Source: Chitinophagales bacterium (GTDB lineage: Bacteria > Bacteroidota > Bacteroidia > Chitinophagales > UBA2359). Taken from it: a stretch of 8,608 nt of DNA. Position numbers and translations under genes: made by a program. The first letter of the stretch is position 1. Each line of letters opens with the position of its first letter. The stretch covers positions 1 through 8,608 of the forward strand of contig JAHDDN010000227.1 of assembly GCA_020629335.1 (NCBI GenBank). Direction: 5' to 3'. Of the stretch, positions 2,871-6,570 are shown in pieces. Below the pieces are notes generated by a model. That model made no database searches. It saw only the letters and a program-made list of their open reading frames with translations, and was not told the DNA's origin.

Positions 2871-2885
2871 CATACACCAAAAAAA

Positions 2886-3096
2886 GCGCAAGGGATAGTA
2901 GCGGTATGTGGCGTCGAGAGACTGCTTACGAAGCTTAGTGATGTGATGGCTGGCCCGCAGGGCAGACAAACAGCACTTAGCGTAGTAGCAGACGAACAGC
3001 CACATAAGAGCGGATAGCCCGACCCATTTTTTGCCATCATTGGGCCGACACACAGGTACGGCCCCTACAAATGATGGCAAAAAATGGGTTGCGCCC
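2886..3096 (-). repeat. 211-bp composite structured repeat, copy A
   Basis: This segment recurs at 5601-5811 in opposite orientation with equal length and about 31 differences (hand count, near 85% identity). In element orientation (minus strand) it has two parts. First comes a perfect 19-bp palindrome, CCCATTTTTTGCCATCATT and its complement (3088-3070 and 3041-3023), whose loop holds a GTAG REP-like hairpin. Second is a long imperfect helix from GGGCTATCC (3019-3011) to TATCCC (2896-2891). That helix contains TATGTGGC/GCCACATA and an 86-nt interior (2998-2913) with covarying pairs. The ends are GGGCGCA and TTGCGC. The minus-strand open frame across it (2844-3098) is not a gene. From memory, similar GGGCTATCCGCT elements are common between genes in Bacteroidota; I cannot verify this here. 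Confidence 0.85.
3042..3068 (-). repeat. REP-like GTAG hairpin nested in copy A
   Basis: On the minus strand GTAG (3068-3065) is followed by GGGCCG (3064-3059), an 11-nt loop, and CGGCCC (3047-3042). It occupies the loop of the 19-bp palindrome, as if a REP unit had entered or been captured at the centre of an ATCATT/AATGAT dyad. It is identical to the unit in copy B. Confidence 0.65.
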
Positions 3097-3114
3097 AAAT
3101 AATCAAAATCAAAT

Positions 3115-3153
3115 GGCCCAAAAAGAGCAAAATGTTTCTTTTTGGGCCTTTTT
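3115..3153 (+). terminator. Strong intrinsic terminator
   Basis: GGCCCAAAAAGA (3115-3126) and TCTTTTTGGGCC (3137-3148) form a perfect 12-bp stem with a 10-nt loop, followed by TTTTT (3149-3153). It is a textbook Rho-independent terminator on the plus strand. It probably ends E2 transcripts that read through copy A, and isolates the CoA-binding gene downstream. An A-run on the left arm's side does not make it strongly bidirectional. Confidence 0.85.
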
Positions 3154-3300
3154 ATTAGAAAAAATCATTAATTAATGCCTATAACACTATGAATCCTGTG
3201 ACTTTCCTACTATTTTTACGAATAAATTAAGCGTACTATTGATATTTATTGAGTCAACAACCATCAATTTATTTTTTACGTTATTAAAGCATATTACCGT

Positions 3301-5525: not shown

Positions 5526-5570
5526 GACGTTGCAGTGCTTTATGTGGACGTTGCAGTGCAAGGTCCCTAC
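5525..5570 (-). repeat. Truncated plus full REP-like hairpin downstream of recN
   Basis: A partial copy, GGACGTTGCAGTGC (5525-5538), is followed 21 nt later by a full one (5546-5566). Read on the minus strand, the latter has GTAG (5570-5567) and then a 9-bp stem with one G-G mismatch and a 3-nt loop. It matches the unit at 90-114 at all but a few positions, including the GTAG head. The direct repeat suggests tandem insertion followed by loss of half of one unit. Confidence 0.7.
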
Positions 5571-5600
5571 GGGTATTTTGGTAAATGATTTTTATTTTTT

Positions 5601-5811
5601 GGGCGCATCCCATTTTTTGCCATCATTTGTAGGGGCCGTACCTGTGTGTCGGCCCAATGATGGCAAAAAATGGGTCGGGCTATCCGCTCTTATGTGGCTA
5701 TTCAGCAGCTACTCCGCTAAGGCGCACTTGTCTGCCTTGCAGGCCAGCCTGCGTCCGCCTAAGCTCCGTAAGCTACTTCATCACGCCACATACCGCTTCT
5801 ATCCCTTGCGC
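5601..5811 (+). repeat. 211-bp composite structured repeat, copy B
   Basis: This is the inverted second copy of the element at 2886-3096, with no insertions or deletions between them. Palindrome arms are 5609-5627 and 5656-5674. The long helix runs from GGGCTATCC (5677-5685) to TATCCC (5800-5805). TATGTGGC (5691-5698) and GCCACATA (5785-5792) enclose the 86-nt interior. Positions 5609-5699 are identical in both copies, a 91-bp match. Interior differences are largely compensatory: for example GCCC-TGC-GGGC in copy A is GCCT-TGC-AGGC here. It stands between recN and the toxin-antitoxin operon. Open frames across it (5500-5847 and 5657-5839) are repeat translations. Confidence 0.85.
5629..5655 (+). 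repeat. REP-like GTAG hairpin nested in copy B
   Basis: GTAG (5629-5632) is followed by GGGCCG (5633-5638), an 11-nt loop and CGGCCC (5650-5655). It lies in the loop of the 19-bp palindrome and is identical to the nested unit in copy A. Confidence 0.65.
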
Positions 5812-5906: not shown

Positions 5907-6104
5907 ATGGATATTACCCAATTAGAGAAAAACACGCTTAAAGAAATGATAGTGCTAATCTTAAAAGAAGATAAAGAATTGCTTAAAGAAATTATTAGAG
6001 AAGTATTAATAGAGGAAGATCCCAATCAAAGAGCCAGTAAAATAGAAAAAATGATCGATGAGGACTTCGAGAAATACAATGAGGTTTTTAAAGCATTAGC
6101 CTAA
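5907..6104 (+). CDS. Antitoxin of the Doc-type toxin-antitoxin pair
   Basis: This 65-aa acidic, helix-rich protein is judged an antitoxin from its size and its position 1 nt ahead of a Doc toxin gene. It has no clear DNA-binding N-terminal domain of the Phd/YefM kind. Residues 10-36 form an amphipathic charged helix (KEDKELLKEIIREVLIEE). The C-terminal stretch IDEDFEKYNEVFKALA (about 50-65) resembles the F-x-x-[YF]-x-x-x-F-x-x-L-A tail of antitoxins paired with Doc-like toxins, the part expected to wrap around the toxin and block its active site. The ATG at 5907 has only a weak A-rich binding site. Low-similarity small antitoxins diverge fast, so the family name is left open. Confidence 0.7.
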   Translation: MDITQLEKNTLKEMIVLILKEDKELLKEIIREVLIEEDPNQRASKIEKMIDEDFEKYNEVFKALA

Positions 6105-6105
6105 T

Positions 6106-6570
6106 ATGAATTACTTACAGAAAGATCATATTATTCTCATCAATCGAAAAACCTGTTTAAAACATGGCGGGAATTTTATTCCTCCTTTTAATTTTCACAA
6201 TGAGGAGCCTCTTAATTATTTGATTGATGCTGTCGAGGCAGAAATGTTTGGTGCCCCCTTATACGACGGTATTGATAAGAAAGCCGCATTGTATATGTTT
6301 AGCATCATTAGTAATCATGTTTTTCAAGATGGTAATAAAAGAACGGGCTTAGAATCTGCCATTCTCTTTTTAAGGTTAAATGGTGCGAATTTACAAGAGG
6401 AACTTGTTCAAGTAAAAACGGAAGATGGCAAATTAATTCCACAAAAAGGCACTAACAGCACTGAAATCTTAATTGAATTTACCTTAGAAGTCGCTGCTGG
6501 AAAAATCAGCTTAGAAGAATGTACTTTATGGTTTTCAAAAAACATTATTTGGGAAGACCTTGTTCAATAA
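6106..6570 (+). CDS. doc: Death-on-curing (Doc) family toxin, Fic fold
   Basis: This is a type II toxin of the Doc branch of the Fic superfamily. Phage P1 Doc phosphorylates elongation factor Tu and stops translation; the same reaction is likely but not shown here. The 154-aa protein has the Doc-form active loop HVFQDGNKRT at residues 71-80, matching H-x-F-x-[DN]-[AG]-N-K-R, with catalytic H71 and the K78 that separates Doc kinases from AMP-transferring Fic proteins (HPFxxGNGR). The helix GLESAILFLRLNG (81-93) follows, as in Doc. The length is somewhat above P1 Doc (126 aa). It begins 1 nt after the antitoxin stop, so the two are surely cotranscribed. It is convergent with the gene at 6622-7218. 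All key residues are present, so it is probably active. Confidence 0.9.
   Translation: MNYLQKDHIILINRKTCLKHGGNFIPPFNFHNEEPLNYLIDAVEAEMFGAPLYDGIDKKAALYMFSIISNHVFQDGNKRTGLESAILFLRLNGANLQEELVQVKTEDGKLIPQKGTNSTEILIEFTLEVAAGKISLEECTLWFSKNIIWEDLVQ

Follow-up and report, generated by a model that had tools for sequence, protein, structure and literature searches.

Two copies of a Flavo-1-related hairpin repeat in a Chitinophagales contig: stems kept by paired changes and a possible replication-oriented DNA fold

Introduction

Flavo-1 (RF01705) is filed in Rfam as 'Gene; sRNA', and Weinberg et al. 2010 (PMC2864571), in the part of the text available, rated it as probably an RNA, probably not cis-regulatory and probably not a riboswitch. 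The family is also listed among sRNAs in the accessible text of PMC9029176, and its matches in the F. psychrophilum transcriptome seemed to be indistinctly sense or antisense according to the portion of PMC9723704 that could be consulted. In the open-licence PMC literature, so far as its text is searchable, no report of a three-way junction, a second hairpin or a replichore bias was found for Flavo-1, and the letter string GCGGATAGCCC led, in the literature texts accessible, only to mycobacterial SSB papers.

Two mobile systems are relevant for comparison. The transposed strand of IS608 prefers the lagging-strand template, and its orientation is correlated with replication (PMC5371812, available extract), while transposase genes of subclass 2.6 in Bacteroidetes reportedly have atypical structures on their flanks (PMC6006769, available extract).

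Here we analysed a window, by which we mean the whole 8,608-nt stretch of contig JAHDDN010000227.1 from a Chitinophagales bacterium, in which two copies, A and B, of a dispersed element are found. In our assessment there is about an even chance that A and B represent a structure-selected, replication-oriented dispersed hairpin element related to Flavo-1, acting as a single-stranded fold at the DNA level rather than as an RNA gene. As far as searched, the unit in the window and its three-way junction anatomy are new, and the base of its first hairpin is already known as Flavo-1.

Results and Discussion

Anatomy of the two copies

Read on the strand that carries GGGATAG, the general layout consists of the five-base 5′ arm of an outer stem P1 (usually GCGNN), an A, hairpin H1 (GGGATAGnAGCGG ... 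AGCGGATAGCCC), GA, a second hairpin H2, a short linker, the 3′ arm of P1 and usually CC; in the many copies compared, H2 usually starts with CC and ends with GG (Table 1). An earlier note on this DNA had described a 211-bp element with a conserved hairpin. The conserved fold was borne out, but not the size, each copy being 209 nt long, and the 86-nt fold turned out to be one arm, H1, of a three-way junction P1/H1/H2 and not the whole structure. The strand folded at that time was the complement of the better-folding GGGATAG strand.

Table 1. Positions of the element's parts in the window, with the evidence for each
Feature	Position	Strand	Basis
Copy A, complete element, 209 nt (P1 - H1 - H2 - P1′)	2886-3094	+ (sense, GGGATAG strand)	Three-way junction in unconstrained minimum-energy fold, -97.1 kcal/mol
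Copy A, P1 5′ arm GCGCA, then linker A (2891)	2886-2890	+	Complementary to 3090-3094; P1 rule
Copy A, hairpin H1; base GGGATAGTAGCGG (2892-2904) and GAGCGGATAGCCC (3008-3020)	2892-3020	+	Sub-threshold Flavo-1 match, 20.8 bits
Copy A, H1 interior, closed by TATGTGGC/GCCACATA	2913-2998	+	A/B comparison, chance test, window-type alignment
Copy A, GA junction linker	3021-3022	+	GA after H1 in nearly all copies inspected
Copy A, hairpin H2, CCCATTTTTTGCC...GGCAAAAAATGGG	3023-3088	+	Same sequence in copy B
Copy A, P1 3′ arm TGCGC	3090-3094	+	P1 rule; fold
Copy B, complete element, 209 nt	5603-5811	- (sense strand = minus)	Three-way junction fold, -102.0 kcal/mol
Copy B, P1 5′ arm GCGCA; linker 5806	5807-5811	-	Fold / copy comparison
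Copy B, hairpin H1	5677-5805	-	Sub-threshold Flavo-1 match, 21.8 bits
Copy B, H1 interior, partner of 2913-2998	5699-5784	-	A/B comparison, chance test
Copy B, hairpin H2, identical to that of A	5609-5674	-	Copy comparison
Copy B, P1 3′ arm TGCGC	5603-5607	-	Copy comparison

A full-length comparison of A with B shows 31 differences, of which 29 fall inside the H1 interior (34% of its 86 nt), and H2 and the outer stem are unchanged. The two interiors, taken as the reverse complement of 2913-2998 for A and as 5699-5784 for B, align without gaps, and a recount reproduced the 29 differences exactly, together with all eight double changes listed earlier and two 'repaired' pairs, 7-78 and 26-58, which are inferior in A and good in B. 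The 91-nt block described as identical between the copies (2998-3088 of A) was also confirmed. Since H2, lying within this run, is identical while the H1 interior differs at 29 positions, A and B are mosaic.

When the A/B differences were re-dealt to positions with the same base (20,000 trials, with the structure folded from one copy only), the strand used in the earlier note gave 7 double-compensated pairs versus 1.38 expected with the structure from A (7 reached in 1 of 20,000 trials; 3 pairs broken) and 4 versus 1.35 with the structure from B (619 of 20,000; 4 broken). For the opposite strand the counts were 8 versus 1.44 with the structure from B (0 of 20,000; 3 broken) and 5 versus 1.29 with that from A (80 of 20,000; 3 broken). 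The double changes are real and beyond chance, with few pairs breaking and a strength that varies with the copy supplying the structure. To say that covariation between two copies proves the fold was too strong, although many more copies support it. Similarly, 'selection on structure, not sequence' was half right: structure is kept by paired changes, but the outer frame GGGATAGnAGCGG/AGCGGATAGCCC, which also formed part of the search pattern, shows strong sequence conservation.

The earlier note had also taken structural selection as the simplest explanation, leaving aside two other sources of paired changes, module exchange and template switching. In the former, recombination between copies would have swapped in an H1 interior that had gained its paired differences elsewhere in the distant past. 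We consider this a tentative possibility of some weight, with somewhat less than even chances. It fits the identity of A and B over 91 nt, including all of H2, alongside their divergent interiors, and near-identical H1 cores with different H2 are found elsewhere (L054/L179 and L042/L188; L and G numbers are our handles for loci and genomes). However, it accounts for the history of A and B and not for the existence of paired differences.

Copy A lies in sense orientation 85 nt past the stop codon of a 2-oxoacid dehydrogenase acyltransferase gene, and may be within the 3′ untranslated region of that gene. Just 3′ of it is a terminator-like, T-tailed hairpin at 3107-3156 (GGCCCAAAAAGA...TCTTTTTGGGCC, then T-rich sequence). 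Copy B is antisense to recN.

Several other features were observed in the window. A separate inverted repeat (2809-2875, 30-nt arms 87% complementary, 7-nt loop) is located 3′ of the acyltransferase stop codon and ahead of copy A, and palindromic repeats resembling GGACGTTGC(g/a)GTGCAACGTCCCTAC at 90-116 and 5526-5575 appear by eye to be another kind of dispersed repeat. A 65-aa ORF with no Pfam match (5907-6104) precedes a Fic/DOC-family gene (6106-6570; PF02661, 41.6 bits), and the two are possibly a toxin-antitoxin-like pair.

Relation to Flavo-1

The H1 base of both window copies could be aligned to the Flavo-1 model without any non-standard pair and with the conserved bases in place, but both copies miss the gathering score of 42 bits (Table 1). 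The comparison with Rfam suggested earlier thus led to a family that shares the H1 base and whose threshold neither copy reaches. Of 18 scanned loci with the window's H1 base, 14 reach the gathering score, the exceptions being L005, L015, L023 and L024, and L003, L009, L021, L022, L038, L046, L052, L053 and L093 both pass the threshold and show P1 and H2 like those of the window. Since the window element is below threshold and yet continuous with passing loci, it is a related variant of Flavo-1 and not a formal member by score. In the genome of L093, 3 of 4 copies inspected had a TAGC / GCT-type base and were without H2.

Folding strand and gene context

After loci from six genomes had been added, the set of relatives comprised 213 distinct element cores. 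In 208 of them the lower minimum energy belonged to the GGGATAG strand, and the energy of H2 preferred the same strand, 144 to 21. The conserved helices contained 129 G-U pairs versus 31 C-A cells, which correspond to G-U on the other strand, as counted in helices predicted on the GGGATAG strand with G-U allowed. Better folding of this strand fits either RNA or single-stranded DNA; tolerance of G-U on one strand is equally expected of RNA, and so it weighs against a reading in terms of DNA only.

An RNA-level function would have the copies act as a small RNA, or as an mRNA-borne element that protects or ends transcripts, with selection on the transcript. This one-strand tolerance, the filing of Flavo-1 as an sRNA, and the sense placement of copy A between a stop codon and a T-tailed hairpin are all in its favor. 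However, 141 copies with genes on both sides had no fixed orientation relative to them (++ 34, -- 51, +- 31 and -+ 25), and promoter-like TAnnTTTG was found within 84 nt upstream of 192 copies 10 times in sense and 13 times in antisense (shuffled mean 8.8), giving no promoter signal. In its layout the element resembles a replication-linked DNA element more than an RNA gene. The antisense position of copy B and the indistinct strand of Flavo-1 matches in the F. psychrophilum transcriptome (PMC9723704, available portion) also speak against an RNA function, which moreover does not predict the replichore orientation described below, and we consider it unlikely. Of the 141 copies, 24 overlapped an ORF called by a simple finder, and convergent spacers were somewhat over-represented (31 of 141 versus 75 of 515 element-free gaps).

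Paired changes in P1, H1 and H2

Among 187 elements with enough flanking sequence, 167 had the reverse complement of their own five-base P1 arm downstream in the expected setting, versus 6.9 expected from the arms of other elements, and a stricter rule gave 116 versus 5.1. Arms other than GCGTG were paired in 68 of 85 cases, and the pair sets included GCGTG/CACGC, GCGCA/TGCGC, GCGTT/AACGC, GCGTA/TACGC and GCATG/CATGC, plus a string of single cases.

For H1, covariation was assessed in three lineages with different interiors, aligned by sequence only, against a null in which substitutions were scattered on the tree (40 simulations with a fitted tail), using a purpose-written script and not R-scape. 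The significant pairs fell within the predicted H1 structure in 4 of 4 cases for the lineage of 117 copies, 3 of 4 for that of 16 copies (the fourth being a non-standard pair) and 5 of 5 for that of 15 copies, or 12 of 13 in sum. An alignment of many copies lacking covariation above phylogeny, which had been named as the result that would speak against the fold, was therefore looked for with this script and did not occur.

Pair counts gave a similar picture, although they are favored by structures derived from the same sequences. In the 117-copy lineage, 95.4% of pair cells were standard, and 22 of 45 pairs had two-sided changes in at least 2 copies. In 15 copies of genome G007, 93.9% of cells were paired, compared to 73.0% after shuffling and 33-45% when partners were slid. 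Two-sided changes were seen in 32 of 47 pairs (0 of 500 shuffles), and the covariation score was 0.553 versus 0.159. In four window-type H1 sequences 96.3% of cells were paired and two-sided changes affected 9 of 40 pairs. Neither value was reached by any of 500 shuffles, and the number of further pair types was unexceptional (117 of 500 shuffles). P1 and H1 stems are kept by paired changes, and it is the GGGATAG strand that folds best, as a three-way junction.

In the 117-copy lineage, marked by TAGCTTG, copy pairs that were 90-95% alike showed 199 one-sided versus 85 two-sided changes, and the ratio of two-sided to one-sided changes climbed from 0.43 through 0.77 to 1.24 with falling identity. 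Since this ratio turns with divergence as stepwise compensation predicts, selection is favored for H1. In the two smaller lineages the trend was less clear, the most similar copies giving 3 to 2 and 5 to 4.

The arms of H2 are near-perfect and often unrelated in sequence from locus to locus, and turnover of H2 may well proceed by mutation or exchange. At L034 and L308, apparently the same site, where the flanks are about 76-84% similar, the outer pairs of H2 were kept and the inner arms were swapped for different complementary arms; over the whole element 18 pairs differed on both sides, 2 on one side and 49 were unchanged. Three other same-site pairs had 1, 0 and 3 two-sided versus 5, 6 and 4 one-sided changes, in two-sequence folds that partly ran into the flanks.

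Paired changes could also be a product of mutation rather than selection, if template switching within the hairpin, known as quasi-palindrome correction, uses one arm to rewrite the other. Such switching has been described for RNA genes and can make paired changes without selection (PMC8794818, available text). Long, near-perfect H2 arms that are unrelated between many loci agree with this process, as do the replaced inner arms of L034/L308 and an H1 interior in which unpaired columns, taken together, do not exceed paired columns in conservation (mean top-base frequency 0.751 versus 0.798). On the other hand, some unpaired H1 positions do not vary although the stems around them do (8 of 29 unpaired columns at 95% or above, 13 of 55 for paired columns), which counts against template switching because repeated arm copying should erase them, an argument weakened by the overall conservation just given. 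Half-changed pairs occur frequently among the most similar copies of the largest lineage, although the two small lineages do not show this, and a preference for one strand is not predicted. We therefore regard template switching as quite improbable.

Distribution of copies

A pattern built on the H1 base matched both window copies, with 0 matches in shuffles, and at least 117 stretches in genome contigs plus one viral contig. The matches listed are from Bacteroidota, except for six Treponema or Spirochaetaceae loci, and plasmids had no match to window 2881-3111. The RecN encoded in the window is 66% identical to that of G003 (Chitinophagales), and in 60 relatives of G003 exact matches were found in 8, very unevenly (81, 51, 14, 13, 3, 2, 1 and 1), with 0 for a reversed-pattern control. 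Among 60 relatives of G008, a DNA search gave no window-like element outside G008, where it was on two contigs, perhaps mis-binned. Matches to the Flavo-1 model were present in 13 of 17 genomes picked for holding elements, numbering at least 11-80 in 10 of the 17 (with at most 150 candidates scored per genome), and in 0 of 14 control genomes. Flavo-1 itself is a dispersed repeat, the unit of which recurs tens of times in some genomes.

Several draft contigs terminate at or near element copies. No clean empty site was seen in the genus of L093, where the element is present, judged by eye, at 6 of the 7 loci having both flanks and L279 has an unrelated spacer, and comparison of G001 with G002 gave one same-site pair and one contig end but otherwise no pair with both flanks.

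Some single loci are worth recording. A viral contig from IMG/VR (L001, 30-155) contains a complete element including P1 and H2. L305 (9475-9857, equal to L036) has two elements about 130 bp apart, one per strand, and L061 has tandem element ends about 80 nt apart with one common P1 3′ arm, which look nested or duplicated. An unrelated second dispersed repeat was noticed at L208 (1233-1403); genome G002 has it at three places that are 84-89% alike.

Possible mobilization by a RAYT (TnpA_REP) transposase, as for REP-like repeats and for example by subclass 2.6 of Bacteroidetes, was also considered. Sub-threshold Flavo-1 hairpins were found about 330 nt upstream of a RAYT-type gene in G003 (L131, 922-1068, equal to L319, 1027-1173; 34.2 bits) and about 180 nt from another in G379 (L430, 2186-2265; 37.4 bits), and because of this second case we raised our estimate slightly, from extremely to very improbable. 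However, a Flavo-1-like hairpin was nearby at only these 2 of 36 RAYT loci scanned with the model, and was absent from the other 29 of the first 30. Flavo-1 matches are present in 13 of the first 30 genomes (7 over threshold), so the missing association is not wholly explained by genomes that lack the element. RecN loci, taken from element-bearing genomes and thus not a matched control, matched by pattern at 4 of 21, and element ends, with one error allowed, were found at 0 of 13 Y1 loci. Of 21 element-bearing genomes or records, many of them incomplete, 13 were without a Y1_Tnp match and 8 had one. These tests of RAYT/Y1 loci revealed no transposase partner for the element, and a RAYT transposase is disfavored as a general partner.

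Orientation relative to replication

The orientation of Flavo-1 matches was compared with replichores in three genomes of one genus (that of L093, Chryseobacterium), chosen for a contig 1 holding nearly all bases. Replichores were set by the GC skew of 20 sampled windows only, and gene-strand bias had the same sign. Listed matches were opposite to the skew-inferred leading strand in 41 of 54 (p=0.00018), 49 of 63 (p=1.1e-5) and 24 of 33 cases (p=0.014), or 114 of 150 in total. A split fitted to the elements gave 44, 49 and 25. In 200 sign shuffles the first two values were never reached and the third, for G208, was reached 18 times, which is not significant. This strong test covers Flavo-1 model matches in one genus and not the architecture of the window.

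Six draft genomes were used for copies that share the 3′ end of the window copies. Within contigs, 105 same-strand cases were counted versus 95.3 expected (7 of 5000 shuffles), a clustering carried by G015 (9 of 5000) and partly by G145 (288 of 5000), with none in the other four. On eight sampled contigs, 29 of 42 such ends were opposed to the skew (p=0.02), with gene orientation free to vary; the largest misfit was contig C12 of G145, with 7 of 7 on one strand and a mean skew near zero. The folding strand tends to be on the leading-strand template, and this is weaker for window-type copies.

The rule for IS200/IS605-type elements, by which the active strand lies on the lagging-strand template, does not describe these data, the bias of 114 in 150 being of opposite sign; insertion of the IS608 type would give the sign opposite to the observed orientation. 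Hairpins are lost more from the lagging-strand template, and loss of copies with the better hairpin on that template would give the sign that is observed.

Because orientation is linked to replication, we argue for DNA-level biology, in keeping with the preferred reading of A and B as copies of a structure-selected DNA element. The element would work as a single-stranded fold, recognized or tolerated while its strand is single-stranded around replication, and selection would keep H1 foldable because copies propagate or persist via this single-stranded state. Orientation would then be set by replication and not by transcription, either by biased insertion or by loss of copies whose better-folding strand is on the lagging-strand template, and H2 would be a loosely constrained arm, the contents of which are exchanged wholesale.

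A wider proposal, possible but on balance rather unlikely, is that Flavo-1 is a family of non-autonomous DNA elements that multiply or survive via a single-stranded three-way-junction DNA fold around replication, with a lineage-specific H1 co-evolving with a putative binding partner and H2 rewritten as a cassette. If this were true, Flavo-1 would move from the lists of sRNAs to the structured repeats, and its incomplete single-hairpin model would be extended to a three-way junction. It would also provide a natural experiment, in which tens of copies per genome read out paired changes, fork orientation and hairpin turnover, and a warning that covariation alone does not demonstrate that a motif acts as RNA.

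Comparison with known systems

The closest described system is Flavo-1, with which the window copies share the H1 base GGaUaG-AGCGG ... AGCGGAtAGC and occurrence in Bacteroidota; their H1 interior of ~100 nt, their GCGNN P1 stem and their second hairpin H2 are all absent from its 76-position model. Like REP sequences and REPtrons, they are dispersed intergenic palindromic repeats with tens of copies, but they form a 209-nt three-way junction instead of one short hairpin and have no general association with RAYT. With IS200/IS605 elements such as IS608, the window and Flavo-1 elements have in common strand-specific DNA hairpins and a replication-correlated orientation, whereas no transposase is tied to them and their better-folding strand is on the leading-strand template, the opposite sign. 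Integron attC sites have as their hallmarks R and L boxes and an integron integrase. ERIC and MITE-type elements are imperfect intergenic palindromes of 100-200 bp without a gene-orientation rule, and the window element, also an imperfect intergenic palindrome without such a rule, is distinguished from them by its own sequence, its three-way junction, its lineage-specific H1 interiors and its hypervariable H2.
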